From positions 62,001-126,000 of the forward strand of contig NZ_RCNR01000001.1 of assembly GCF_009725985.1 (NCBI RefSeq): 64,000 nt of DNA, in the 5' to 3' direction. The position numbers and the translations under genes were made by a program. This DNA comes from Zobellia amurskyensis (GTDB taxonomy: Bacteria > Bacteroidota > Bacteroidia > Flavobacteriales > Flavobacteriaceae). Of this stretch, positions 11,584-54,543 are shown piece after piece (within the stretch, counting starts at the first letter, position 1; each line of letters opens with the position of its first letter). Below the pieces are notes generated by a model, which saw nothing but the letters and a program-made list of their open reading frames with translations, made no database searches and was not told the DNA's origin.

Positions 11584-14421
11584 TTAAAACTCAAAGGTTA
11601 GGTCTATACTAATAGGCTCATCATGATTTCCGAAGTAATTTTCTGAATTTCCTTGGGGACCCATTTTATCTCCTGTTTGAAATTTGGTTCCTATTGCAGG
11701 TACATTTTTAACAAAGGAGATGTCGCCTTCCGGAAAGTCCACAGAAACTCTATGATTAAGGTCTTCTTTTGGTTGCTGAGGGGTAAGCATTCGTAAAAAG
11801 GTGTTTTCAGAATTGCAATACACTGTAAAACCGTTGTTGTTTTTACCTTTTACATGCGCCCAGTACAGACTAGAAAAGAATCCTTTAAACTCTGGATATA
11901 CAAAACCTGACTCTCCGGTAACGGTATTGTTGTAATCATTTTCCCAAACTTGAAATTTGGTACCCTTCATTCTGTTCCGCCATACACGGTAGGGTCCGTC
12001 TCCTAGCCATTTCATGCCGCTAACTTCAGATTCCGGAAACGAGAATGTAATACCTTTGAATCCTTTCACTATTTTTTTGCCCTTAATTTCAACATATAGG
12101 TCCAACAGGCCGTTGGAGTGTACGCTCCATTTTATAACATCAGAGCTGTACTCTTTATGACTTGCCCATCCTGGAGATTTATCCGTCTTTTCAAAAACAG
12201 TTATGATCTCTACTTTGTCTTTAAGCTTATTTACATTTATAGATTCTATCTTGTCTTTATGGTCAAAAATAATAGGTCCATTAGTAAAGGGAATACTATT
12301 ATTCCCTTTTTTAACCTCTTGCAACAAGCTGGTTTCTTCTGAAAAGGTATATTGAATTCCGTTTGCTTCAACTTTTATTAATCCACCGCCAACAAGGGTT
12401 GTAACCGCTCCTTGTCCTGTCTTAATAATGTTACTTTTATTTATGTCATTTGGGACTTTATTTGGGTAACTCCATGTAAAAATTTCCAACCCATTATGGT
12501 CTGTAGCTGTCAAAAACAAAGCATCTGCAGATGGCCAATTTTCAGGTAAATCTACTTTGAACGCTCCTTTGGTTTCTGGTTTTAAATTTGGTAATTGAAC
12601 AGTGCTCTCAGAAAGCACTTCAACTTTGTCCGTTCCTTTTGGCCCATCAAACTGTACCCATTTAGCAACCATTTTAATCTCATTTAAATTGGTGAAATGA
12701 TATCTGTTTTCAACCCTAAAAACACCATTAAAATCTGATTTTATATAACGGTCTTCTATGTAAACTGGAGACCAAATTTCCTTAATACTGAAGTAACTAG
12801 CTTCTTTCTCACCATAAGGCCCCACGATACCATCGGCTGCATGATTGCCATCTGTGTCTAGTATTCCTTTTTTATCTGTTCGAACCACGGCTTCATCTGC
12901 AAAATCCCATAAGAAACCTCCGGCAGCTAATGGCATATTCCACATCTGTTTCCAATAATCATCTAGTCCGGAACCATGTCCACCATCATACAGACCATGT
13001 AAAAACTCGGTTGGGAAATATATTTTATCCTTAGCATAAGTATCATACGCAAAAACATGATAGCTAGGATAGTGCATGGTATTCGTTTTGTTAAAGATAT
13101 TCCAAGGGTGAATGACTTCTCTTTTTTGAATGTCCCACTTGGCATAGTCACCATCTAACTCTGTATTCCAGCCTGTTTCGTTTCCGTTGGCCCAAAGGAG
13201 AATAGAGGGGTGGTTTACGTCACGCACAATAGTTTCTTTTACTATTTTACGGCCTACTTTTGTATCCAAATGAGGTGAGTGCCATGTGCAGACTTCATCT
13301 ATAACAAAAAGCCCAAGCGAATCCGCAACATTTAAAAAGTGCTTGTCTGGAGGGTAATGAGACATACGAACGGCATTCATATTCATGTCTTTCATCATTT
13401 TTATATGCTCAATGCTTAGCTCTTTTGATGTAGTTCTTCCCGAGGAAGGATAGAAGGAATGACGATTTACGCCTTTGAATTTTATTCGTTGCCCGTTTAC
13501 GTAGATTCCGTCTCCCTCACGAACTTCAACCGTTCTGAAACCGATACGTTGCGTAGTTGTATGAAGCACTTCACCTTTTTTGTCCAGAAGTTCAATGTTC
13601 AAGAAGTATAGTTGAGGCGATTCCGGATTCCATGATTTTATGTCGTTTGCTTTTGAGGTAACATGCCACTTATCATTTTCTTTACTGATGTCAGTAGCGG
13701 CTAAATTTTGTATTTTTTTGTGATTAATATCAGATAGCGAAAGGCGAAGAGATTTAGCTTTTGTAGATACAGTGTAAATATCGGCTTCTAAGCTTCCATC
13801 TGCTTTAGCATTGATGGCAACCCGTTCAATATTTTCTTTAGGGGAAGCTTGTAAATAAACAGGTCTAAAAATTCCACCGAAAATCCAAAAATCTGCTTCT
13901 CTTTCTGCATGATTGATAGAGGTGTTGTAAGAGGCTTTGTTCACTTTGACTTCTAGCAAGTTTTTTTCGCCGTATTTCAGGAGTTTAGAAATCTCATACT
14001 TGAATTCATAAAAAGCCCCTTGGTGTATTTCGCCAGCCAGTTTTCCATTAATTTTTACCTCGGCATCTGTCATGACGCCTTCAAAAACAATTTTCACTTC
14101 CTTTTCATCCCAATTTTCTGGAACATCAAATTGATACTTGTAAAGCCCGTATTCGTTCTTACGCACCTTAAAATCATCTTTGCCATAGTTGTAGTTTCCA
14201 AATCCCTGCAATTCCCAACAAGAAGGAACACCAATAGTAGTCCATTTGCCACTGTTCATTCCGTCTGAACAAAAGAAATCCCAGCCTACCATATCATCTT
14301 TACCTTTACCTGATAGATAAACTTCTTGCGTTTCAATATCAGCTGGTTCTATTTTGGACTGCATGGCATTTACTCCAAAAAGAGATAGCCATAATAGTAT
14401 AAAAGTGGTGGTGGTTTTCAT
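11584..14421 (-). CDS. Glycoside hydrolase family 2, beta-galactosidase-like, secreted
   Basis: A 945-residue exo-acting retaining glycosidase with an N-terminal signal peptide (MKTTTTFILLWLSLFGVNAM). It has the GH2 layout: jelly-roll sugar-binding domain (GYKY/FDVPENW region near residues 95-105), an immunoglobulin-like domain, the TIM barrel from about residue 300 (IKFKGVNRHSFYP, NMNAVRMSHYPPDKHFL) and C-terminal beta-domains. The acid/base is Glu415 in LLWANGNETGWN and the likely nucleophile is Glu472 in FPTEFLHG. Known family activities include beta-galactosidase, beta-mannosidase and beta-glucuronidase; with GH110 and sulfatases around it, beta-galactosidase on a desulfated galactan is the best guess. 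It is divergent from a candidate membrane-bound regulator. Confidence 0.9.
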   Translation of the reverse strand: MKTTTTFILLWLSLFGVNAMQSKIEPADIETQEVYLSGKGKDDMVGWDFFCSDGMNSGKWTTIGVPSCWELQGFGNYNYGKDDFKVRKNEYGLYKYQFDVPENWDEKEVKIVFEGVMTDAEVKINGKLAGEIHQGAFYEFKYEISKLLKYGEKNLLEVKVNKASYNTSINHAEREADFWIFGGIFRPVYLQASPKENIERVAINAKADGSLEADIYTVSTKAKSLRLSLSDINHKKIQNLAATDISKENDKWHVTSKANDIKSWNPESPQLYFLNIELLDKKGEVLHTTTQRIGFRTVEVREGDGIYVNGQRIKFKGVNRHSFYPSSGRTTSKELSIEHIKMMKDMNMNAVRMSHYPPDKHFLNVADSLGLFVIDEVCTWHSPHLDTKVGRKIVKETIVRDVNHPSILLWANGNETGWNTELDGDYAKWDIQKREVIHPWNIFNKTNTMHYPSYHVFAYDTYAKDKIYFPTEFLHGLYDGGHGSGLDDYWKQMWNMPLAAGGFLWDFADEAVVRTDKKGILDTDGNHAADGIVGPYGEKEASYFSIKEIWSPVYIEDRYIKSDFNGVFRVENRYHFTNLNEIKMVAKWVQFDGPKGTDKVEVLSESTVQLPNLKPETKGAFKVDLPENWPSADALFLTATDHNGLEIFTWSYPNKVPNDINKSNIIKTGQGAVTTLVGGGLIKVEANGIQYTFSEETSLLQEVKKGNNSIPFTNGPIIFDHKDKIESINVNKLKDKVEIITVFEKTDKSPGWASHKEYSSDVIKWSVHSNGLLDLYVEIKGKKIVKGFKGITFSFPESEVSGMKWLGDGPYRVWRNRMKGTKFQVWENDYNNTVTGESGFVYPEFKGFFSSLYWAHVKGKNNNGFTVYCNSENTFLRMLTPQQPKEDLNHRVSVDFPEGDISFVKNVPAIGTKFQTGDKMGPQGNSENYFGNHDEPISIDLTFEF

Positions 14422-14627
14422 GAGTTCAATTTTTAATTTAATAGTGTCCGGCCTTTCCTATATGCTTAAAAGAGACTTTTGTAATAGTGTTGCCTTTCTA
14501 AAAAGGGAATTAAAATGATTGTAACAAATGTATGTTTCACACTTTATTATTTGTACTTTAACCTCTCTTTAACGGTAGCTATAACGGTTAAACTTGTCTT
14601 GTAGCTGCCTATTTTACGGTATTCTTC

Positions 14628-15779
14628 ATGCAACTGACGGAAAAGATAGAACAACAGGTAGTTTCTAGAATAAAGGATAGTGAGACCTTTAAAAATGCGC
14701 CAACAAGCAGAGGATTGTTGCAATATCTCTATGAAGCTACAAAGAGGGGAGAGCATTTAAAAGAGGCTGTAATAGAATTGGAATTTTTTAGAAATGATGA
14801 GAACCAAGAGAAGAACAATCCTAGGGTAAGGGTTAATATTTACAACCTTAGAAAAAAGCTGACGGCATATTACGAAACGGAGGGTAGTACAGATAGCTGG
14901 CAATTAAAAATAGATAAGGGTCAGTATAAAGTTCGATTTATAAAAAGACAAGCTCCGGCAGGTTGGATGCAAAAGGTAACTTGGTCACAAATGCTTCCTT
15001 ATGTTTTATTGCTTGTTGCTCTGGTAATATTGGTGGTTACCAACATACCATCAAAAACACCATTGTTATGGAAGTCGTTTTTAGATTCCGATAAATCTAC
15101 GAACCTGATTCTAGGAGATCATTTTGGTGCCATGGGAGAAACAATGACCGGAGGTAGGGGGTGGACTAGAGATTTTGAGATAAATAGCGTTGATGAATTT
15201 TATGATTTACTCGAGGTAAAACCCGAATTACAAGGTGTGCTTCACCCCGCAAATTATAGTTATACCACTCGGATGGCGGCTATGGCAACCCAGCAGTTTC
15301 AACAGTTTTTTCAAGCAAATGACAAGCAGTTTTCTATTCGATTTTCTACCCAAACTACGCTGCCTGAAATTAAGGAAGGTAATGCCATTTATGCGGGCCC
15401 GATAAAAAATGAAAATCAATTTATCGGCTTTTTTAATGATGCTAATCCGTACTTTAATCTATCAGGAAAAACCTTAAAATTAAGTGGTCATCCAATACTA
15501 AAGGATAGCTTATTTACTTTTGGTACTTCTTTGGTGGACCAAGAATATGCTATTGTAGCAAAGTATCCTAGTATTGGTAATTCAGAACATTTTGTATTCT
15601 TTTCGCAACACGATATAGGTGTAAGCGCAACGGTTGAATACTTTACGAACAACGACAACCTTCAGAAGTTTGAAGAGACATATCTGAAGGGCCACAAATA
15701 CTTTACAGCACTATTCAAAGTTAAAGGTCAGAATAGGGTTGACACCGATTTAAAACTTGAAATGGTGGTCGGGTTTTGA
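14628..15779 (+). CDS. Candidate membrane-bound regulator: winged-helix-like domain, one membrane helix, periplasmic domain
   Basis: I do not recognise this 383-residue protein as a named family. Residues 1-105 resemble the winged-helix-like N-terminal module found in some TolB-like and adenylate-cyclase-like proteins: SRGLLQYLYEATKRGEHLKE, then NPRVRVNIYNLRKKLTAYYE, then the IDKGQYKVRF strand. A single hydrophobic helix follows (about residues 122-140, MLPYVLLLVALVILVV), with positive residues before it, so the N-terminus should be cytoplasmic. Residues 145-383 would be periplasmic and show no recognised enzyme motif. The layout resembles ToxR/CadC one-component regulators. It is divergent from GH2 (206-base gap) and convergent with a sulfatase (15-base gap). 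Regulation of this locus is inference. Confidence 0.6.
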   Translation: MQLTEKIEQQVVSRIKDSETFKNAPTSRGLLQYLYEATKRGEHLKEAVIELEFFRNDENQEKNNPRVRVNIYNLRKKLTAYYETEGSTDSWQLKIDKGQYKVRFIKRQAPAGWMQKVTWSQMLPYVLLLVALVILVVTNIPSKTPLLWKSFLDSDKSTNLILGDHFGAMGETMTGGRGWTRDFEINSVDEFYDLLEVKPELQGVLHPANYSYTTRMAAMATQQFQQFFQANDKQFSIRFSTQTTLPEIKEGNAIYAGPIKNENQFIGFFNDANPYFNLSGKTLKLSGHPILKDSLFTFGTSLVDQEYAIVAKYPSIGNSEHFVFFSQHDIGVSATVEYFTNNDNLQKFEETYLKGHKYFTALFKVKGQNRVDTDLKLEMVVGF

Positions 15780-15794
15780 ACAGTTAACTGAGTT

Positions 15795-17300
15795 TTATTT
15801 ACTCATAGCTCGTATAATTTTCTCCATCTCAACTTTTGAAGGACGAGGTCTTTTTCTGAATGAATTGGATTTTCCCGTCTCACGATCAAACTCATCTGGT
15901 GTTCTAAACGCTGGTAAGCTATCTTTTGAGGCTTTCCTAATGCTATTCATTTCAGTTCGTAACTCTACTAACTTTTTATTATGCTCAGGGTCTAACGCCA
16001 AGTTTTTAAGTTCATAAGGGTCATTGACCACATCGTATAGTTCTTCTTCCAGTCTTGGCGTAACAAAACAGGCCAATTGCGCCTCGTTAAGCTCGCCTTT
16101 TTTCTTTAGCTCCTGCATAGATTTAAATGTTCCGCCAATGAATGCATCCGCAGAAGGAGTATTGGGTAAATCCGTATAGAAGTTACGTATGTATTTAAAA
16201 TCTTCTGTACGTACGGCTCGGGTGTAATCTTCGTAATCATGCCAGTGGTCTTCGGCATAAATGATATCTCTGGTTTTTGCTTTTGTGTTTTCTAGCAATG
16301 GAGAGAAATCTTCACCTTCAAAACTTGGTAACGTTTCTAAATTCGCAAGTTTTAAGAATGTTGGAGCTATGTCTATTGAGCTTACCAAGTTGGTATTAAC
16401 CGAATTAGATTCTACTTCATTTGGCCATTTTACAATCCATGGTGTTTTTATACCCCCATCATAAAGTGTGGTCTTATCACGAGGGAAAGGTCTACCGTTA
16501 TCACTAATAAACAAAATCATAGTATTGTCTGAAACCCCTTGTCTATCTAGTTCCGCAACTACTTCACCTACATAATTATCTAGGCGGGTAATCTCATTGT
16601 AATAGTGCGCAAAGTCTTCACGTACTTCTTTAGTGTCTGGAAAATAAGGTGGAAGTACCACATCTTCCAATACATGTGGGTTGTCAATGATATCTTCGGT
16701 ATAAGGTCTATGCGGGTCAACTGCGGCAAGCCATAAAAAGAAAGGTTGGTCTTGTGGCCTTTGCTTAAGCACAGGTATCCATTCTTCGCAACCACTGCCG
16801 TTGCCCGTCTGTTTTGTTTTTTCGCCCGTAGGCGATAACTGAAAACCGTGTGTGCCAACATCCTTTACGAGGTCAAAACGGTTTTTAATAGAATCCCCCA
16901 AGTGCCATTTTCCCGCTTGTGCCGTCCAGTATCCAGATTTTTTAAGCTCTTCTACAAAAGTTATCCTGTCTGAAGGTAATGGCCAGTGTAGTTGCTCTGC
17001 ATCCGTATTGTGCGGGTATAAACCAGTTATAATACTGGTTCTACTCGGGCTACACGAACTGGCGGTCAAGAAGGCATTGTCAAAACGCATACCGTCTTTC
17101 GCTAGTTGGTCTATATTGGGAGTTTTTATGTTTGGGTGTCCGTAAGCACCGCTATCATCCCAAGCCATGTCATCGGCAATAATAAGAATAATATTAGGGC
17201 GTTCCTCGGTAACTTTCGCCTCTTCTTTTTTCTTTTCTGCACAGGAAGAAAGAAGTAAAAGACCTATTGAAAGAATAGATAAAGTATAGTTTTTGTACAT
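15795..17300 (-). CDS. Sulfatase, S1 family, lipoprotein
   Basis: A 501-residue sulfatase with a lipobox (LLLLSSC, Cys20). The metal-binding start is RPNIILIIADDMAWDDSGAYG, and the formylglycine motif is SSCSPSRTSIITG with Cys83. Substrate and metal residues follow in AQAGKWHLGDS and FISDNGRPFP. It groups by eye with the sulfatases at 33124 and 58441, which share the GAYG...TPNID spacing and a C-terminal arginine-rich end. It is the last gene of a three-sulfatase operon and starts 6 bases after the stop of the sulfatase-SMP-30 fusion. The position it desulfates cannot be told from sequence. Confidence 0.93.
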   Translation of the reverse strand: MYKNYTLSILSIGLLLLSSCAEKKKEEAKVTEERPNIILIIADDMAWDDSGAYGHPNIKTPNIDQLAKDGMRFDNAFLTASSCSPSRTSIITGLYPHNTDAEQLHWPLPSDRITFVEELKKSGYWTAQAGKWHLGDSIKNRFDLVKDVGTHGFQLSPTGEKTKQTGNGSGCEEWIPVLKQRPQDQPFFLWLAAVDPHRPYTEDIIDNPHVLEDVVLPPYFPDTKEVREDFAHYYNEITRLDNYVGEVVAELDRQGVSDNTMILFISDNGRPFPRDKTTLYDGGIKTPWIVKWPNEVESNSVNTNLVSSIDIAPTFLKLANLETLPSFEGEDFSPLLENTKAKTRDIIYAEDHWHDYEDYTRAVRTEDFKYIRNFYTDLPNTPSADAFIGGTFKSMQELKKKGELNEAQLACFVTPRLEEELYDVVNDPYELKNLALDPEHNKKLVELRTEMNSIRKASKDSLPAFRTPDEFDRETGKSNSFRKRPRPSKVEMEKIIRAMSK

Positions 17301-34770: not shown

Positions 34771-37700
34771 TCATTGAGCTGAAGTTCTGTAAAACTGAAG
34801 GCTGTCATTGTTGTTACTTATAACCAATAACTTCCCGTACTTTTTATTGCTTAAGGTTTTGATATGTCTGGTCTGCTTATCTAGCATAAACCCCGATTGG
34901 GTAGTAGGTGTTTCTTTAAAGTTACCACCTCCCATATTTCTTAGAAGTGTTCCATAACCTGCATCGTAACGTCCTAGTTCGGTATTGGCGTCATAGAAAT
35001 TTTCTCCAAGTAGTAAGTCTAACTTCCCGTCTTGATCAAAATCTAATTTATGAATGGCATTTACCGTAGAGAATTGTGCAATGGTGGGTAGGGGAGTAAG
35101 TTTGAATTTCTTGTTTCCGAGATTTTCAATGAAACAACTTCTGAATTCGTAAGCTTTTAAGGTCTTAGCAGTATTAAGTTCTTCTGGTAAAAATATTTCT
35201 TTAAAGTCGGCTTGGGCAAAAGCGCTATATGTAGAGAATTTTTTGCGGAGATACACCATTTGTTTCTCTAGCAGGCTTTTTGAAGAAAAAACATGTTCTT
35301 TCCCTTTAATAAAATGAGTAGTGACTCCTTCTGGCCAACCATTTTTGTCAAAATCGGCATAATACATCTGTACAGGTCCTTTTTCAGTTGCCCTCAATTT
35401 TGAGTTCAGCCCAAGATTTCCCGCTACCAAATCAATGTCACCATCATTATCAAAATCTCCGTATTCTACTGTATTCCACCAACCATTTGAAAGCTGTAAG
35501 GAATTGGCCTCCGGGTTAGCTTCGCTAAGATGTCCGTTGGAGTTATAATATATTTTAATGGGCATCCATTCACCTACTAGCACAAGGTCTTGCCAATCAT
35601 CTCCATTTAAATCGACCCATTTTGCAGAAGTAACCATTCCGCATTTCTCATAAAGCTTTTGGGACGAAGCATCTATCGTGAAATTACCTTTCCCATCGTT
35701 TTTAAGAAGATAGGAATCTGGCGAAGAACCATATTTTCCAGGAACGGAGCGTGAGGATATAAAAATATCACTATCTCCATCTTTGTCAAAGTCAGCGATA
35801 GCCAAGTCCGAAACAGTCGTATATATTTCAGGGAAATTACCTTGTTTTGTAAAGTTGCCCCTTCCGTCGTTTATATAAAGCCGAGTAAGACTTTTTGGGT
35901 CGGGTTTTATTTCTTGATTACTGCCGCTGCCAACAATTAGATCTAAATGACCATCTCCATTAACGTCTACAAATTCTGCAGCAGTATCTTCAGAAGCGGA
36001 ATCGGTTTTTAGGGCTTTTGATGTGGATTGGACAAATTTGCCATTGGATCGTTGTAAATAGATTTCAGAAGATTGGTTTAGCGCTCCACCAACGAAAAAG
36101 TCATCCAAGCCATCATTGTTGAGGTCGCCAACTGCAATAGGAGCTCCCCATGTGGAGTTCATATGTGGTATCAAATGTTCTCTATTAAACTCATAAAACC
36201 GATTTTCCTCGTGCCGATAGTCAATATTTAATTCGCTATTATTGACTAGGGTAAATAGCGTTTCTGATTTTTTCCCCGTTTCTGACTTTAAAAGCGAAGT
36301 ATTTTCTTGGGCAATGTTCAATATTTGACCCGAAGCAACGTCCGTTAAAATAGTTTGTTCTTTATTTGGCCATTGTACCAAAATAGTATCTATAACGGTG
36401 TTTTTGGCAACTGAAAAATTTAAATATGGAGGAGGAGATGACAAATATCCTCTGACATTCAATAGCTCTTGATATTGCTTTTGACCTTTATTTTTTAGAG
36501 TGACTTTAGAACCTATACCGAAAGCATTCCCAGGCTTACCGCTTAGTTTTATTCTCAAGTAGTCTTTGTTTAAACTATCGTTTTCAAGCGTATTGTTTTT
36601 TAAGATAGATGCTTTTTCGTTTAAATTGTTGATTACCAAATCTAAATCGCCATCATTGTCTAGGTCGGTATACGTAGCACCGTTTGAGAAACCTTTTTTT
36701 GTGCCGCCCCATTCAGTAGATTTATTTGAAAAGGTGAGGTCATTATTATTTTTGAAGAAGAAATTCTGCAAAGGATAGCTTGGCATTTTATCCGTTAGGG
36801 CTTCGCTATAATCATAATTTCCAGATCGTAATTGGTTTTGAACTTCATCGCCAGAAAGGAACTGCATATAGTCCATATCATTACTTCGTCTAAAAATACC
36901 GTTGGTAATGAAAATATCTTTTTGCCCGTCCATATCAAAGTCATTAGCTAAAACAGACCAGCTCCAATCTGTGGCTTCAATGCCGGATAGTCTTGCTATT
37001 TCGCTAAAGTGCTCACCGTTTCTATTCAGTTGAAAAGTGTTGTGTGCATATTGATGCTGGTACCCAAAAGACAGTTTGTAGTTGAAAATGGCGTATGAAT
37101 CTTCGCCATGCGATGCTTTTAGAATTTCTGGCTCATAAGCTTGCATATCCAAAGACAAAATATCCGGTAGACCATCATTGTTCAAATCGGCAATATCGTT
37201 ACCCATAGAAAACCGGCTGGTGTGTTTTAAACGAGATTCTAAATCTTCTGTAAACGTACCATCTCCGTTATTGATGTAGAGGTAATCGTCCTCATAGAAG
37301 TCGTTACCAATGTAAATATCAGGATAACCATCTTTGTTGATATCAGCAGTACTAATACCCAATCCAAACCCTAGAGGACTGCTATAAATACCGGATTCTT
37401 TAGTGACGTCTGTAAATTTATCACCGTCATTTCTAAATAACTTATCGCCATAGGGACTAGAAATCAAACGCTTTTCCGCACGAGGAAGTACACCGTCGTT
37501 AAAATTTGAATGCGTCATGATATACGCATCAAGATCACCATCTAAATCATAATCAAAAAATGCAGTTTGTGTGGTAGCACCTTTCACGGTTAGACCCAGC
37601 TCATTAGCACTTTCCTTGAATTTAGGAGAGCCATTCTCATCATTTCCTAGGTTGATGAAAAGAAGGTTGTGTCCGTTGTTACCTAAAATCTCTCCAATCT

Positions 37701-38112
37701 GACTTACATAGATATCCAATTTCCCATCTCCATTAACATCAGCAAAAGTTACTCCTGTGTACCAGGCATTTTCATCGCCACCAGTGCCGCTATTATTGGT
37801 GATATCTGTAAACTCAAAACCACCTTTGTTGAGATATAGCCTGTTTTTAATTTGATTACCGGTAAAATAGATATCATCAAGACCATCACCATTTAAATCT
37901 CCTGCTGCCACCCCGCCACCATTGTAAAAGTACATGTAAGAGAATAGGTTTAACTTTTTGGATGCTTCAACAGAATTGCTGAAATCTACGCCGGTAGTTT
38001 CGCTGGAAATCTCTTGGAAGAGTGTATTTTTCTTAGGTTTTATTTCCAGCTCTTTTTTTTCTTGGCACGATACAATGAGTGCCGCAACCAAGATGAATAG
38101 CATTGATTTCAT
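34771..38112 (-). CDS. Large surface lipoprotein with FG-GAP/VCBS repeats and ASPIC/UnbV domain
   Basis: A 1113-residue protein. I place the start at 38112, 14 codons inside the longest frame, because the lipoprotein signal MKSMLFILVAALIVSC (Cys16) starts there. Many calcium-binding FG-GAP repeats follow: DLNGDGLDDIYFTGN, DVNGDGKLDIYVS, DYDLDGDLDAYI and DINKDGYPDIYIGN. An ASPIC/UnbV-type beta-domain sits near residues 530-590 (NAFGIGSKVTLKNKG, VRGYLSSPPPYLNFSV), followed by a second set of FG-GAP repeats. This suggests a seven-bladed beta-propeller pair anchored at the cell surface. No enzyme motif is seen; glycan or protein binding is likely. It lies between two sulfatases, 67 bases after the one at 38180. 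Confidence 0.85.
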   Translation of the reverse strand: MKSMLFILVAALIVSCQEKKELEIKPKKNTLFQEISSETTGVDFSNSVEASKKLNLFSYMYFYNGGGVAAGDLNGDGLDDIYFTGNQIKNRLYLNKGGFEFTDITNNSGTGGDENAWYTGVTFADVNGDGKLDIYVSQIGEILGNNGHNLLFINLGNDENGSPKFKESANELGLTVKGATTQTAFFDYDLDGDLDAYIMTHSNFNDGVLPRAEKRLISSPYGDKLFRNDGDKFTDVTKESGIYSSPLGFGLGISTADINKDGYPDIYIGNDFYEDDYLYINNGDGTFTEDLESRLKHTSRFSMGNDIADLNNDGLPDILSLDMQAYEPEILKASHGEDSYAIFNYKLSFGYQHQYAHNTFQLNRNGEHFSEIARLSGIEATDWSWSVLANDFDMDGQKDIFITNGIFRRSNDMDYMQFLSGDEVQNQLRSGNYDYSEALTDKMPSYPLQNFFFKNNNDLTFSNKSTEWGGTKKGFSNGATYTDLDNDGDLDLVINNLNEKASILKNNTLENDSLNKDYLRIKLSGKPGNAFGIGSKVTLKNKGQKQYQELLNVRGYLSSPPPYLNFSVAKNTVIDTILVQWPNKEQTILTDVASGQILNIAQENTSLLKSETGKKSETLFTLVNNSELNIDYRHEENRFYEFNREHLIPHMNSTWGAPIAVGDLNNDGLDDFFVGGALNQSSEIYLQRSNGKFVQSTSKALKTDSASEDTAAEFVDVNGDGHLDLIVGSGSNQEIKPDPKSLTRLYINDGRGNFTKQGNFPEIYTTVSDLAIADFDKDGDSDIFISSRSVPGKYGSSPDSYLLKNDGKGNFTIDASSQKLYEKCGMVTSAKWVDLNGDDWQDLVLVGEWMPIKIYYNSNGHLSEANPEANSLQLSNGWWNTVEYGDFDNDGDIDLVAGNLGLNSKLRATEKGPVQMYYADFDKNGWPEGVTTHFIKGKEHVFSSKSLLEKQMVYLRKKFSTYSAFAQADFKEIFLPEELNTAKTLKAYEFRSCFIENLGNKKFKLTPLPTIAQFSTVNAIHKLDFDQDGKLDLLLGENFYDANTELGRYDAGYGTLLRNMGGGNFKETPTTQSGFMLDKQTRHIKTLSNKKYGKLLVISNNNDSLQFYRTSAQ

Positions 38113-38179
38113 CACTATAAAAGAAAAATTACGTCCAAAAGAAGGTGAGGGCATGTGTTTGATTTACGAGAGGTGCTTT

Positions 38180-44400: not shown

Positions 44401-44548
44401 GCAAGGGCATTCCCGTATCGTCTGAAACGGTACCGCTAACTGTGCCATCTTGGGCGTGTAATTGTACCGTAGCTAGCAGGAGCCCTAAAAAGGATAGTCC
44501 TAACCGCAGTAAAAAGGGTTTCTGGGTCGATTGTTTTTTTTGTTTCAT
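41429..44548 (-). CDS. SusC-like TonB-dependent outer-membrane transporter (pair 1)
   Basis: A 1039-residue SusC/RagA family transporter. The signal peptide ends near residue 32 (LLLATVQLHAQ). A carboxypeptidase-regulatory-like domain follows (GTVSGTVSDDTGMPLPGANV), then the TonB-box-like EEVVVVGYGQQKRVNLTGSV near residue 115. The plug domain includes IKIRGLNSFGSSNSPLVLID and KDASSAAIYGSRAANGVI, and the long beta-barrel ends in FRKTLTLGVNMTF. It imports oligosaccharides using TonB energy, together with SusD1. The 337 bases upstream hold an 18-bp element shared with another operon of this locus. Confidence 0.95.
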   Translation of the reverse strand: MKQKKQSTQKPFLLRLGLSFLGLLLATVQLHAQDGTVSGTVSDDTGMPLPGANVLVKGTTTGTQTDFDGNYSISASNDATLVFSYIGFSTQEIPVNGQSTITVSLAEDASKLEEVVVVGYGQQKRVNLTGSVTAVDEEALEDRNVQNAFQALQGQAAGLQISQNSGAPGNEGLNIKIRGLNSFGSSNSPLVLIDGVEGNLQDLDPSVIGSISVLKDASSAAIYGSRAANGVILVTTKTGGNNTFKIEYNGSVSTETFTKVPQMISNSADYMTLMNQALINTPGASANPYPQDVIDAYRNNQGNPAFPNTNWFDEASRTPIVQRHVVTASGAIDGTSYNISVGNWDQPGIIRSSGFKKNNFFMSVKSDIGEKLTVGGTVSGVASKTSGPQQAGTESGLFNLFRVRPTWGVYTLDGTGHYSGKAFSGTDSQFPGFDEGFTRNNPIAELEVQDGEVLNQYNFNGNLFFDVKLSDDLVWSTKGAYKFDYDYYKNQRIQYDEYNYRTGEYLRTTRDPSQLTVDNVWSKQTTLFSTLTYSKLIGDHDFKVLGGYSQEGFDRNFTRSQRTGIPNRNITDLEGVNSENQFTTGFSESWAIQSFFGRANYNYKEKYLIEANLRGDISSRFAKGNRLGIFPSVSAGWRLDKEDLFQDIEAVSELKLRGSWGQLGNQNIGIDVQDDELNSGIYPYQSTLSFDQFGYPFGSSVLAGVGLRSLVDSDITWETTTVTDFGVDFSLFNRKLYGSVDYYVKETVDILRQLQVDESSGLNPPVVNQGAMTNKGWDIVIGHNNSINDDLRYSINGNVSWFKNRLKTFGEPGIEDRNINQEGYAFEDWYMWEADGYFQDEDEIANSAVQPQPGKVGFIKLKDQNGDNVIDGDDRIHIDGRYPAFVYGLNLSVNYKSLDFRMFWEGVEGTKNYIARDPFRQDGGTDKAWLTEAWTPDNRNSRLPAVYYETAETRRSTVYNNSFWLWDTSYLRLRNVTMGYSLPADVLDKTPFNKLRFYFAAENYLTFQKDYPIDVDPEANGVDAYPFRKTLTLGVNMTF

Positions 44549-44727
44549 AAGTTAACTTGAGAGTTTTGAGTTAAGAAAAGCTAATATAGTGTTAAAAGTG
44601 CTAATTTAGTTTGGAGGTTGCTTTAGAAGCATAACAAATGGTCTTGAATATGAAACAAATGATCTAATCTATTTATAGTTGAAAACCCTGTTTTTTATTA
44701 TGGGTCACATTGTTTCTGACTCACTAA

Positions 44728-44735
44728 CAAAGTTA
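44728..44735 (-). promoter_or_regulatory. Possible -7 promoter element for susC1
   Basis: Read on the minus strand the sequence is TAACTTTG, identical to the element before trxA. It would leave a leader of about 170 bases before susC1. No clear -33 element was found. Confidence 0.35.
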
Positions 44736-44771
44736 TAGCTCTTCAAATATGGTTTATGGGACGTATAGTAA

Positions 44772-44789
44772 TGTCTCTCTCAGTAAATT
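44772..44789 (-). promoter_or_regulatory. Shared 18-bp element, copy upstream of susC1
   Basis: On the plus strand it reads TGTCTCTCTCAGTAAATT. It matches 17 of 18 bases with the copy at 51343-51360, and both lie upstream of minus-strand operons in the same orientation. It is likely a binding site for a common regulator (inference). Confidence 0.5.
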
Positions 44790-44885
44790 GAATGTATTTC
44801 TCCGTCCGGCAACACAATTATGTGTATGCCCGATATAAAATTTAAATATGTTCTGAAGCTATTTTATTGCTAGGGAGTGTAAAGT

Positions 44886-51377: not shown

Positions 51378-52823
51378 TTACTCATTATAAAAGTCTGAAA
51401 TAATATTTCTAGCCCCTTTTTGATAATCCCATAGATAATCACCGGTTACATTAACGCACTTTTGACTAATATGATGCGGAAGCACGGAAACTAGAGGGTA
51501 GCCTATTTTGGATTTGACCATTCCTAAATGCTGTAGGTATTTTTCTTCTGTGATATCTTTTTCGGCATTTCCTCCTATATGGTCCAAGTTAATGCCACGA
51601 CCGGGAGAAGATTTATAAGAGATTTCATAATGGGTCTTTACACGGGCAGGCCAATCATACTTGTCATTTAGCCAAACATCATTGGTTCTGGTAACGTCGG
51701 TAAACTTGGTAAAGAAAATGTCCGGAACATGAAACTCCATTTCAATAGTTTCATCTATGCCTTTTGCCGCTTTATATAATTCCTTGTGTATGTGCAACAT
51801 GTCTGATTTTGTGTTGTACGACATGTCAATTTTGAATTTCCGTACGCCCATTTTATGAAATCGGTCAATAGTCTCAGAAGCATATTCAAAAATATCGGCT
51901 TTCGGATTTAGCCATCGTACTCCTTTGTCATATTCGGTATTACCTTGTGCCCTAAAAGCACCCAAGAGGTTTGGATTGCGCTGAGCAATAGTGCTGGCAC
52001 CATGTATTTTTGGAAAAGCAATCCATAAGCCAGGAGTGAAGCCTTTCTCATTTATGAGGTCCATGGTCTTTCTAAAATCAGGAAATTTCTTCGGATCGGG
52101 ATTCCATGAACCATATCCAGAATTTAAAGAGCCGTCAGGGAATTGGCCCCAACCGTGGTCTAATGTCATTTTTCCTTTGGGATAGCCGTATTCAACTATT
52201 TTATCTAAGTACTTCGCTACAAAATTGTGATTTAATATATTGAAGTGCCCTTTGGGTATATTGGATTGTATCTTCTGTTCTACCCAGGTGCAATACTCCA
52301 CATCTGCCCAAAAGTGAGGATACACTTTATAAGGTTGAATGTTTAGACGTTGCATCATTTTGGTGTTGTAAGTTTTCCATGCTTCCTCGCCATTACCGCT
52401 TTCATCAATAAAAAGTTCTTGTCCATTTGGAACGTTTATGGTCAAAGTTTCTTTTCCATCAAAACTAAATGTAGAATTTTCAAAACCAAACGTGGTCATG
52501 AAGCCTATGAATTTACCTGCGGCATCTCTGATAATGGGTGAACCGCTCATGCCACTTGCGGGAACAGTAAATGGGTTGTGAGTGAAAGCACCGCTTAGAA
52601 AATAATAGGCATCACCTCCTTTTTGAGCAGCGGTACCATCACTGTTGTAGGGGCAGAATAAAGGTTTGGTTACTTTTATCTTCACCTTTTCACCTTCGTT
52701 AGTATTCTTTTTATTCGAAAACTCATAATGTGGGGAAGCTACTTGTGCCGCCAACGGACCTGATATTCCGGCTAAGGCAATACCCATACCTGCTTTTTTG
52801 ATAAAATTTCTTCTGTTCTTCAT
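51378..52823 (-). CDS. Putative alpha-glycosidase, GH31/GH36-like TIM barrel, Tat-exported
   Basis: A 481-residue protein with a twin-arginine signal (NRRNFIKKAGMGIALAG). An N-terminal beta-sandwich precedes a barrel with GH31/GH36-clan features: KMTLDHGWGQFPDGSLNSGY, WNPDPKKFPDFRKTMDLINE and KGFTPGLWIAFPKIHG. The likely nucleophile is Asp333 in RKFKIDMSYN, and the acid/base may be an Asp in DVTRTNDVWLNDKYDW. The family assignment is by motif resemblance only; alpha-galactosidase activity would suit the locus. It starts 7 bases after the stop of the beta-propeller gene and is probably the last gene of the susC2 operon. Confidence 0.65.
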   Translation of the reverse strand: MKNRRNFIKKAGMGIALAGISGPLAAQVASPHYEFSNKKNTNEGEKVKIKVTKPLFCPYNSDGTAAQKGGDAYYFLSGAFTHNPFTVPASGMSGSPIIRDAAGKFIGFMTTFGFENSTFSFDGKETLTINVPNGQELFIDESGNGEEAWKTYNTKMMQRLNIQPYKVYPHFWADVEYCTWVEQKIQSNIPKGHFNILNHNFVAKYLDKIVEYGYPKGKMTLDHGWGQFPDGSLNSGYGSWNPDPKKFPDFRKTMDLINEKGFTPGLWIAFPKIHGASTIAQRNPNLLGAFRAQGNTEYDKGVRWLNPKADIFEYASETIDRFHKMGVRKFKIDMSYNTKSDMLHIHKELYKAAKGIDETIEMEFHVPDIFFTKFTDVTRTNDVWLNDKYDWPARVKTHYEISYKSSPGRGINLDHIGGNAEKDITEEKYLQHLGMVKSKIGYPLVSVLPHHISQKCVNVTGDYLWDYQKGARNIISDFYNE

Positions 52824-52830
52824 TTTGATG

Positions 52831-54543
52831 CTATTCTTGAAGTGTGATTGTTTTGATGAAATTCACAGGCTTATGAGCTTTAGAGGTAATTGTACTTTTT
52901 ACAGTGTAAGTGGCTCCTTTTTGCAGTTTTATTTTGTTTGAAAGTGAAACCGTGGTTTCTTGAAAAGGTTTTATTGGAGAAATTGTTCCAGAAGCTAAAA
53001 TCTGTTCCTTTCCGTCATTTACAAGGGTGAGCTTAAGGTTGGTACTCGTAGAAGTAACTTGTCCAAAATTTTCAACCTTTACGGCTATATCATATCCAGA
53101 GGCTGTCTTTTTGAAAACAGGGGCCCGGGCAGATAGAATTGGGTTGAGGTATTCTACTTCTGGCAAACGGGTATAGCCAAAAAGCAATTTTCCGTTTTTG
53201 TCTTTGCCCAATAGTTTTCCTGCAAAATTGTCGTCAGTAAGGCCATTGCCTTTTCCGTCAAAAACGAGGATGAGGTCTTTGCCTGATTTTTCGGATCTGG
53301 ATATTTTGCTTCCCTTTCCGAAGTTTACTTCTTCCGAAGCACCGAAGCGCAATGAGCCTAAATCAATGTCGGTTTGCGGATTAAAATCGTTTTCGGCTTC
53401 AATTTTAAGTCGGATTTCTTTTGTGCTTGAGGTAATTTTTTTATCGTTTAAAACGGTCAACAGCTTTTCCTTTCTAAGGGGTACGACAATGAGTTTTGAA
53501 CTGTGATTATCGTTGGGGAGATCTTCGTATTTTAAGGTGTCGATTACCGCAAAGTTGGCGGCAATGGCCCTTCCTTTTTCATCTTGTAGTATACGGATAC
53601 GCTCGTATTTATGCCAACCTTCATTTATCCCATTTTCATGAACCGAAATACCGGGCATATAAGCTTCTCCTGGCTCTACTTTCCAATCTACACCATCTTT
53701 TGAACGTAAGTACCATGCAATTCTTCCCAGCCAATCGTTCACGATAAGATGGTATTGTACATGGTCTTTCCAGACTACAGGGTCTTCATATTTGCCTTCT
53801 ACAGGAGGATAGACAGATTTTTCTCCTATCATATTCCATTTGGCTAGACCATTTTTGCTGAAGTATGGGTAGCCGTGGCGGTTTACCATAAGAAATGAAC
53901 CGTCCTCGCGTTGCGCAAAAGTACAGTTGTGCATAAAATTTGAAGCATTTGAGGTCTTGCGGTCACGTTTGTCGAATTCAAATTCCCCTTCTCGCCACGG
54001 ACCGTTAATGTGTTGTGCCACATAATATTTGTCGATTACGTAAAGCACATAACGCCCTTTTTTTGTCACATACCATGTAGGGTTATGACCATGACCTACT
54101 TCTCCAGCAATTTTAAAGGGGCCAAAGGGAGATTCCGAAACACCATGTACAACACGACTATCATGGTAGGACATATGGCCTTTCTCGGCATTTTCGGGCC
54201 AACGGCAAACGAACAGATGGTATTTCCCATCTTCTTTTTGGAGTAAGGTATTTCCGCCCCAATAAGACCAAAGGGGACTTTCAATCCCGTTATTAATATC
54301 TCTGGGGATTACATTTTTAGAACCCCAAGTATCTGAAGTTATACCGCCTAAATCTGGCATGGGTAAAAAACGGTCCATGAAGCGGCCTCCTAAAACAAGG
54401 TTGTTCCATTCTTTGGGTCGTTCTCTTTCTACCACCATTTCACTGGCTTTCTTTTTTTGCTTCTCCAATTCAGTTTTTTGCTGAGATTGAATTGATGAGA
54501 GATTGAGAAAGGCTAGGACAAGAAAAAGGTAGTTCTGTTTCAT
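52831..54543 (-). CDS. GH43-like beta-propeller protein with C-terminal CARDB-like domain
   Basis: A 570-residue secreted protein (signal peptide MKQNYLFLVLAFLNLSSIQS). Residues about 60-370 look like a five-bladed propeller of the GH43/GH117/GH32 type: LWSYWGGNTLLQKEDGKYHL, VVHGVSESPFGPFKIAGEVG, GHNPTWYVTKKGRYVLYVID and KYEDPVVWKDHVQYHLIVND. Residues about 480-570 resemble a CARDB-type beta-sandwich (GYDIAVKVENFGQVTSTSTN). I cannot assign a numbered glycosidase family or a catalytic triad with confidence. It lies between the SGNH esterase gene (13 bases upstream) and the GH31/36-like gene. Confidence 0.65.
   Translation of the reverse strand: MKQNYLFLVLAFLNLSSIQSQQKTELEKQKKKASEMVVERERPKEWNNLVLGGRFMDRFLPMPDLGGITSDTWGSKNVIPRDINNGIESPLWSYWGGNTLLQKEDGKYHLFVCRWPENAEKGHMSYHDSRVVHGVSESPFGPFKIAGEVGHGHNPTWYVTKKGRYVLYVIDKYYVAQHINGPWREGEFEFDKRDRKTSNASNFMHNCTFAQREDGSFLMVNRHGYPYFSKNGLAKWNMIGEKSVYPPVEGKYEDPVVWKDHVQYHLIVNDWLGRIAWYLRSKDGVDWKVEPGEAYMPGISVHENGINEGWHKYERIRILQDEKGRAIAANFAVIDTLKYEDLPNDNHSSKLIVVPLRKEKLLTVLNDKKITSSTKEIRLKIEAENDFNPQTDIDLGSLRFGASEEVNFGKGSKISRSEKSGKDLILVFDGKGNGLTDDNFAGKLLGKDKNGKLLFGYTRLPEVEYLNPILSARAPVFKKTASGYDIAVKVENFGQVTSTSTNLKLTLVNDGKEQILASGTISPIKPFQETTVSLSNKIKLQKGATYTVKSTITSKAHKPVNFIKTITLQE

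Follow-up and report, generated by a model that had tools for sequence, protein, structure and literature searches.

A predicted transmembrane winged-helix regulator and its candidate operator beside a GH2 gene in Zobellia

The regulator gene and its protein

The window, which is the whole 64,000-nucleotide stretch of DNA analysed here (G000:C1:62001-126000), belongs to the 5.1 Mb genome of the seaweed-associated marine bacterium Zobellia amurskyensis. Its genes include 13 sulfatases, two GLAA-B (GH110-type) barrel proteins, a GH29 fucosidase, a SusC/SusD pair and a second SusD, a set that suggests a sulfated, fucose-containing glycan as the substrate. A 1127-aa FG-GAP/UnbV-ASPIC protein is also encoded within the sulfatase locus (34771-38154). 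Two large proteins without a confident Pfam family are encoded at 51378-52823 (weak Melibiase match, E 8e-4) and at 52831-54543 (weak CARDB match, E 6e-4; relatives in L042 and L048). The regulator studied here is encoded by an open reading frame of 383 residues on the forward strand, separated from a GH2 gene by a divergent gap of 206 bp, all as the first-pass annotation had described. The genes and predicted features of this part of the window are the following.

11584-14421, reverse strand: GH2 glycoside hydrolase gene, predicted direct target (Pfam GH2 domains; operator at close homologs)
14525-14532, reverse strand: predicted Bacteroidota -7 element TACATTTG of the GH2 gene, 39 bp from the operator core
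14568-14592, forward strand: predicted operator TTTAACGGTAGCTATAACGGTTAAA, a period-12 direct repeat with its core at 14572-14591 (Zobellia footprint; upstream of 49/87 family members; single exact copy in the window)
14628-15779, forward strand: predicted one-component transmembrane regulator gene, 383 aa (ORF list; family alignment A1)
14628-14945, forward strand: predicted cytoplasmic OmpR-type winged-helix DNA-binding domain, residues 1-106 (weak Trans_reg_C match; model; SaeR DNA-binding domain, Z 6.7)
14823-14876, forward strand: predicted recognition helix, residues 66-83 (DSSP on the model; invariant columns)
14991-15047, forward strand: predicted single membrane helix, residues 122-140 (hydrophobicity maximum; helix 119-138 in the model)
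15048-15776, forward strand: presumed periplasmic sensor domain, residues 141-383 (model with pLDDT 91.2 and pTM 0.89; structure alignments)
15795-17300, reverse strand: convergent sulfatase gene, 15 bp from the regulator, a neighbour and no predicted target (not adjacent in L037-L039)

The N-terminal module, described earlier as winged-helix-like, is predicted to be an OmpR-type winged helix spanning residues about 6-105. In Pfam, Trans_reg_C matches residues 25-80 weakly, with E 0.12 and 12.9 bits for the full-length protein and E 0.012 and 16.2 bits for residues 1-121. Both scores lie below the gathering score of 26.2, so that the regulator is not a listed ToxR/CadC member by sequence model. 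At E<=1 the same Pfam family is found in 22 of the 32 members compared, the best match reaching 1.8e-4. The full-length AlphaFold2 model (pLDDT 85.1, pTM 0.61) contains a predicted DNA-binding helix, on which the earlier claim depended, at residues 66-83, followed by strands 91-95 and 102-106 that form a two-stranded wing. Residues 6-104 align with the DNA-binding domain of SaeR, an OmpR-family protein, over 88 residues (Z 6.7, rmsd 3.6). This Z score is middling and consistent with the Trans_reg_C alignment, and together they place the modelled N-terminus in the OmpR-type winged-helix fold. R68, L74, R75 and Y81 in the helix and G98 in the wing are invariant in 32/32 members (alignment A1).

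The strongest hydrophobic 19-mer of the protein starts at residue 122 (Kyte-Doolittle mean 2.6), where a membrane helix at about 122-140 had been proposed, and hydrophobicity at this helix reaches at least 1.6 in 75 of 85 members, a set that includes six N-terminal-only relatives. The charge bias around the helix is not clear-cut in the window protein, which has one K/R residue before it and two after; the family means are 2.9 and 1.7. The presumed topology would place the C-terminus in the periplasm. Neither Pfam nor NCBIfam finds a receiver, a kinase or another signalling domain in the regulator, a sequence search of the PDB returned nothing, and a phage collection held no match. There is good support for an architecture in which a one-component regulator is anchored in the membrane and has a presumed sensor in the periplasm.

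The C-terminal 243 residues match nothing in Pfam or NCBIfam, in line with the domain of about 240 residues without an enzyme motif that had been annotated. Modelled alone from 69 sequences, the domain reaches a pLDDT of 91.2 and a pTM of 0.89; the underlying alignment A2 holds 69 of 70 non-redundant members, L161, in which an internal stop is reported, being left out. Foldseek returned no match at E <= 0.001 for the regulator models, and the fold assignment rests on a second structure alignment, limited to the families in its candidate lists. In that alignment the domain resembles BcsB (Z 11.3, rmsd 3.2 over 163 residues) and the N-terminal domain of GH67 alpha-glucuronidase (Z 11.1, rmsd 2.8 over 124 residues), with further matches to GH115 (Z 9.5), an archaeal S-layer anchoring domain (Z 8.9), GH84 (Z 9.4), GH138 (Z 8.6) and GH20 (Z about 6). 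The regulator domain thus has its fold in common with BcsB and with the N-terminal domains of GH67, GH115 and GH84, at about 8-16% identity. Unlike in these glycoside hydrolases, it follows a membrane helix, is a presumed sensor and lacks a catalytic barrel. The S-layer and GH138 matches imply that the fold is not specific to uronic-acid enzymes, and a modelled fold common to this domain and GH67-type domains does not establish a common ligand.

The predicted operator and its targets

From the aligned upstream regions of Zobellia emerged a conserved block, TTTAACGGTAGCTATAACGGTTAAA, at 14568-14592, and blocks related to it precede many paralogs. It is a direct repeat with a period of 12 bp, ACNGT-N6-AACNGTTAA, counted across the family as the pattern ACNGTNNNNNNAACNGTTAA. 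Exact copies lie upstream of 49 of the 87 family members, with one mismatch in 5 more; the 87 include partial members and six N-terminal-only ones, and the pattern was derived partly from sequences among them, the members fetched later being the fairer test. The 49 fall in 19 genera, and many are Zobellia copies. Among 1620 random windows from the same loci there was no exact copy and one mismatch in 3, and upstream regions of other genes gave 3 exact copies in 544, with one mismatch in 4. A site of this kind across the family backs the prediction that the regulators bind DNA. Four further exact sites in the family neighbourhoods all lie at family members or at genes beside them: those in L041 and L153 belong to members with wrongly called starts, that in L045 precedes two co-directional genes and the regulator, and that in L057 precedes a GH16 gene beside the regulator.

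The pattern is not rare genome-wide, and its weight therefore comes from its position. A genome-wide search was rejected as a target list, as in most of the 36 genomes exact matches are about as frequent as by chance; the own genome has 3 against 2 for the reversed-pattern control, and 1-3 are still present in 13 of the 15 genomes that lacked a family match in the window-protein search. Twelve sites outside known family neighbourhoods were picked for inspection, and nine were chance-like, seven being intragenic and two having no relevant open reading frame nearby. The three that made sense were GH2 pairs in G001 and G003 and a GH16 gene in G005, which lies with its site far from the paralog. 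Two of the three exact sites of the own genome are at family members. The third (G000:C29:42537-42556; L187 7538) precedes a GH16 gene (L187 6408-7289) with no regulator nearby, and the same site precedes a 95% identical GH16 gene beside the regulator of L057, in G007. At L187 6239-6328, a stretch of 30 residues that may be left over from the C-terminus of a family member (E 0.017, with a tiny database) gives no more than a hint of a lost paralogue near the C29 gene. No TAnnTTTG occurs at the GH16 sites in the stretch examined.

The GH2 gene is tied to the operator by comparison of ten genomes, nine of the genus and G018. Close GH2 homologs carry the operator in all ten. In eight of them the homolog (79-100%) adjoins the regulator with the exact operator between divergent genes, the copy in G018 containing one internal stop codon. 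In the other two, the Zobellia genomes G001 and G003, no GH2 gene lies beside the regulator, the adjacent operator has decayed, and tandem GH2 homologs (66-67%) are found as a distant pair behind ACGGTAGTTATAACGGTTAA, with TAACTTTA at exactly 39 bp. This pattern suggests that GH2 is the conserved target and that the regulator can act at a distance. Distant GH2 homologs (37-40%) in G000, G003 and G007 have no exact site nearby among the sites listed. Within the window, the predicted targets are the GH2 gene and the regulator gene itself, whose start codon lies 36 bp from the operator core on the side opposite to GH2.

The -7 consensus of Bacteroidota is TAnnTTTG. On the divergent side, a distance of exactly 39 bp separates TAnnTTT[AG] from the core in 20 of 23 sites of the window's operator subtype (18 of 21 beside a regulator and the 2 distant GH2 sites), and no other offset between 20 and 69 has more than 1. 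These cases span several genera (the window, L041, L042, L125, L129, L133, L152 and others), near-identical Zobellia rows included. In a second, DUF1553-type subtype, TATATT lies exactly 32 bp away in 14 of 15; the subtypes were set by the operator spacer after the sites were seen, and the TATATT pattern was likewise chosen afterwards. When the subtypes are pooled (50 segments, the two distant GH2 sites among them), peaks remain at 39 (20) and 32 (7), and any other offset from 10 to 79 has at most 2. Such an arrangement, in which the site precedes the promoter and keeps a fixed phase to the -7 element, is consistent with activation.

The family and its gene neighbourhoods

The window protein was matched in 16 of 99 genomes, its own included. 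Eight genomes of the same genus, and another one from the family, carry the open reading frame uninterrupted (76-96% identity), and Zobellia barbeyronii has a 96% ortholog of the regulator. Searched with a family profile, 397 genomes of the taxonomic family yield 30 with members (3 of them with the N-terminal domain only) and 395 genomes of the phylum yield 15 (3 of them with that domain only), the own genome being included in both counts. Several genomes carry two to six copies. In the own genome the second paralog (L032, G000:C8:110599-111789) is divergent from a PSCyt1/DUF1549/DUF1553 gene followed by DUF1501, and an L-arabinose isomerase gene lies downstream of it; divergent pairs of this kind, with a DUF1553-type gene, recur in other Flavobacteriaceae. 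Two members, L063 9313-10497 and L050 10481-11679, are broken by stop codons or a frame break, and the operator of L063 is intact.

Relatives also occur farther away. Ones that match over most of the length lie on two Persicobacter replicons (41% and 26% identity), and Catenovulum adriaticum, an alga-associated gammaproteobacterium, has another at 22%, annotated as a helix-turn-helix protein. None of these three plasmid-borne relatives has the exact site, the best having 1 and 2 mismatches in Persicobacter and 2 in Catenovulum. N-terminal matches were found in Rhizobium, Sinorhizobium and other plasmid records, most of the matches listed covering about residues 1-125, and two Granulicella records also match the regulator search. 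Similar N-termini are known from Acidobacteria. Among 18 mostly distant members (L148, L155-L171), only L164 has an exact site, and 11-bp self-repeats upstream of these members look enriched, at 7.28 against 6.39 in shuffles. The winged helix of the regulator also occurs with different C-terminal parts in L149, L150, L151, L172 and L173; TPR repeats take the place of the GH67N/BcsB-like domain in L149, L151 and L172 and are weak in L150, L173 lying outside the scan. A related site with 2 mismatches is present at L149, L172 and L173. A sulfatase gene is divergent from L150, which suggests a role related to that of the regulator family.

Of the 87 members, some of them partial, 82 are divergent from their upstream neighbour. 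Pfam scans were run on 68 neighbour proteins, of which two come from Persicobacter and 66 remain of the 82 after near-identical or repeated ones (16) were dropped. At E<=1e-5 the 68 include at least 8 GH2, at least 6 GH3, at least 5 3-keto-disaccharide hydrolase, at least 4 glucuronate isomerase, at least 3 sulfatase, at least 2 GH88, at least 1 GH115 and at least 1 alginate lyase proteins, so that at least about 30 are enzymes of sugar or sulfate-ester breakdown. PSCyt/DUF1549/DUF1553 proteins account for at least 14 of the 68, and at least 10 contain carboxypeptidase-regulatory-like domains, which are common in SusC-like and other outer-membrane proteins. The UxaC, GH88, GH115 and alginate lyase neighbours, taken with the GH67-like fold of the C-terminal domain, give no more than a hint of the signal.

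Proposed mechanism and comparison with known systems

The preferred reading, to which a probability of roughly 0.8 is given, is that the regulator is a one-component transmembrane transcription activator of the GH2 gene acting through 14568-14592. It draws on the domain layout, the family-wide site, the fixed -7-like spacing and the linkage of the site to GH2. The winged helix would lie in the cytoplasm, joined by a single helix across the inner membrane to a C-terminal domain that would sense a periplasmic signal, most likely an oligosaccharide or sugar released by glycan breakdown. Once activated, the regulator would bind, probably as a dimer, the tandem half-sites AACNGT-N6-AACNGTTAA that stand 12 bp apart at 14568-14592, and would bring RNA polymerase to the promoter of GH2, with its -7 element 39 bp away. 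It probably controls its own gene as well.

The same protein could instead repress the divergent GH2 promoter and be relieved by a ligand at the periplasmic domain; with its own start codon 36 bp away, it might from the same site also shut off its own promoter. This is unlikely, as the site keeps a constant distance from the predicted -7 element, lying upstream of it and not on top of it, and the GH2 promoter has by eye no clear -33 element, as expected under activation. That the repeat might belong to an unrelated factor and be left unbound by the regulator protein draws on the fact that the link between site and protein is one of location, exact sites occurring also in genomes without a family match. 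It is hard to reconcile with exact sites upstream of the family in 19 genera, whatever the divergent gene (GH2, DUF1553, UxaC or others), and it is considered highly improbable. Least credible is a periplasmic part that serves as an enzyme or as a structural piece of the cell envelope, with a degenerate winged helix. The fold is indeed found in BcsB and in accessory domains of enzymes; the invariance of R68, L74, R75 and G98 in 32/32 members and the lack of any enzyme family match in Pfam and NCBIfam speak against it, and it is given almost no weight.

A broader role, as master regulator of the whole sulfatase/GH29/SusCD locus, was implied when the gene was annotated as the regulator of the locus. 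It is the only regulator-like gene there, as had been noted: Pfam scans of 38 of the 46 open reading frames of at least 100 aa, mostly at a cut-off of 1e-5 (the other 8 overlap longer ones), revealed no other regulator family, the one regulator match being at chance level (Autoind_bind, E 0.18). SusC-like genes adjoin some family members elsewhere. A looser half-site pattern (TAACGGT-N5-TAACGGT-like) has 15 matches in the window at up to 3 mismatches where 4.65 are expected, about three times the shuffle frequency and a number not reached in 100 shuffles; only the match at 14570 is exact, and a 2-mismatch copy (44425-44443) lies inside the SusC gene. Against such a role, the window contains a single exact operator, in the gap that separates the regulator from GH2, and even at up to 2 mismatches none is found in the region 44549-44885 before SusC, which had been put forward as a target. 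Elsewhere in the window there are ten matches with 2 mismatches, a number expected by chance, and these fall within called genes. In L037, L038 and L039 the GH2-regulator pair is kept beside different genes, the sulfatase not being adjacent. Control of the whole locus is accordingly rated very unlikely; the regulator and GH2 are read as a cassette within a larger locus, rather than as including its master regulator, and a product of the same glycan could nonetheless be what the regulator senses.

Control of glycan loci in Bacteroidota is usually attributed to hybrid two-component systems, SusR or ECF sigma/anti-sigma pairs, and a one-component membrane regulator had been annotated as a different design. 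This is partly borne out. The single-protein layout is unlike HTCS, SusR and ECF systems; transmembrane transcription regulators were already reported as enriched in Bacteroidota in the available text of a 2023 survey (PMC10269533). According to the same text, about 72% of those of Bacteroides are hybrid histidine kinases, and DNA-binding domains were identified with Pfam models (PMC10269533); the present family would probably have gone undetected by these. In Zobellia galactanivorans, induced regulators include one- and two-component proteins, as stated in the available part of an expression study (PMC5613140), and the corresponding part of a study on fresh algae describes sulfatase and fucosidase loci (PMC9296495). 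The portions of these three papers at hand contain no description of this protein type (PMC10269533, PMC5613140, PMC9296495). A literature search gave no glycan-locus regulator of this type in the titles and abstract openings found; one may exist in print.

The family looks like a widespread kind of sugar switch, so far undescribed. A more far-reaching proposal, held tentatively and at a little under even odds, is that it forms an undescribed class of Bacteroidota glycan regulators: transmembrane winged-helix activators whose sensor domain, related to the N-terminal domain of alpha-glucuronidase, would detect breakdown products in the periplasm, whose shared operator of 12-bp period would keep a set distance from the promoter, and which would have been copied among sugar pathways (GH2, GH3, UxaC, GH88 and DUF1549/DUF1553 clusters). 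If so, it would let marine Flavobacteriaceae pass a signal from the periplasm to a promoter through one protein. The predicted operator, promoter spacing and targets make each step testable, and the divergent layout would help to match such sensors with the degradation genes under their control.

Like the HTCS and SusR systems of Bacteroidota as generally known, the regulator family would couple periplasmic sensing across the membrane to DNA binding, with glycan genes nearby. The histidine kinase, receiver and AraC-type combination of HTCS is absent from the 383-aa protein in Pfam and NCBIfam; the regulator has no histidine kinase, receiver or Y_Y_Y domain and carries an N-terminal winged helix in place of an AraC-type domain. 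Pfam likewise finds in it no SusR helix-turn-helix, sigma-70 region 2/4 or FecR-type partner. The closer likeness is to ToxR and CadC, in which an N-terminal OmpR-type winged helix is followed by one membrane helix and a C-terminal sensor, an order repeated in the regulator, where no receiver or kinase was found. This likeness is one of domain layout. The regulator differs from both in a Trans_reg_C score under the Pfam cut-off, in a presumed sugar-locus role and in a predicted operator of its own, and from ToxR in having a convergent sulfatase gene rather than a partner gene directly downstream. A ToxS-type membrane partner in that position is not universal, CadC having none. The regulator is best described, with good sequence support, as a predicted transmembrane regulator that appears new as a family with its own operator and targets and is ordinary in its overall concept.
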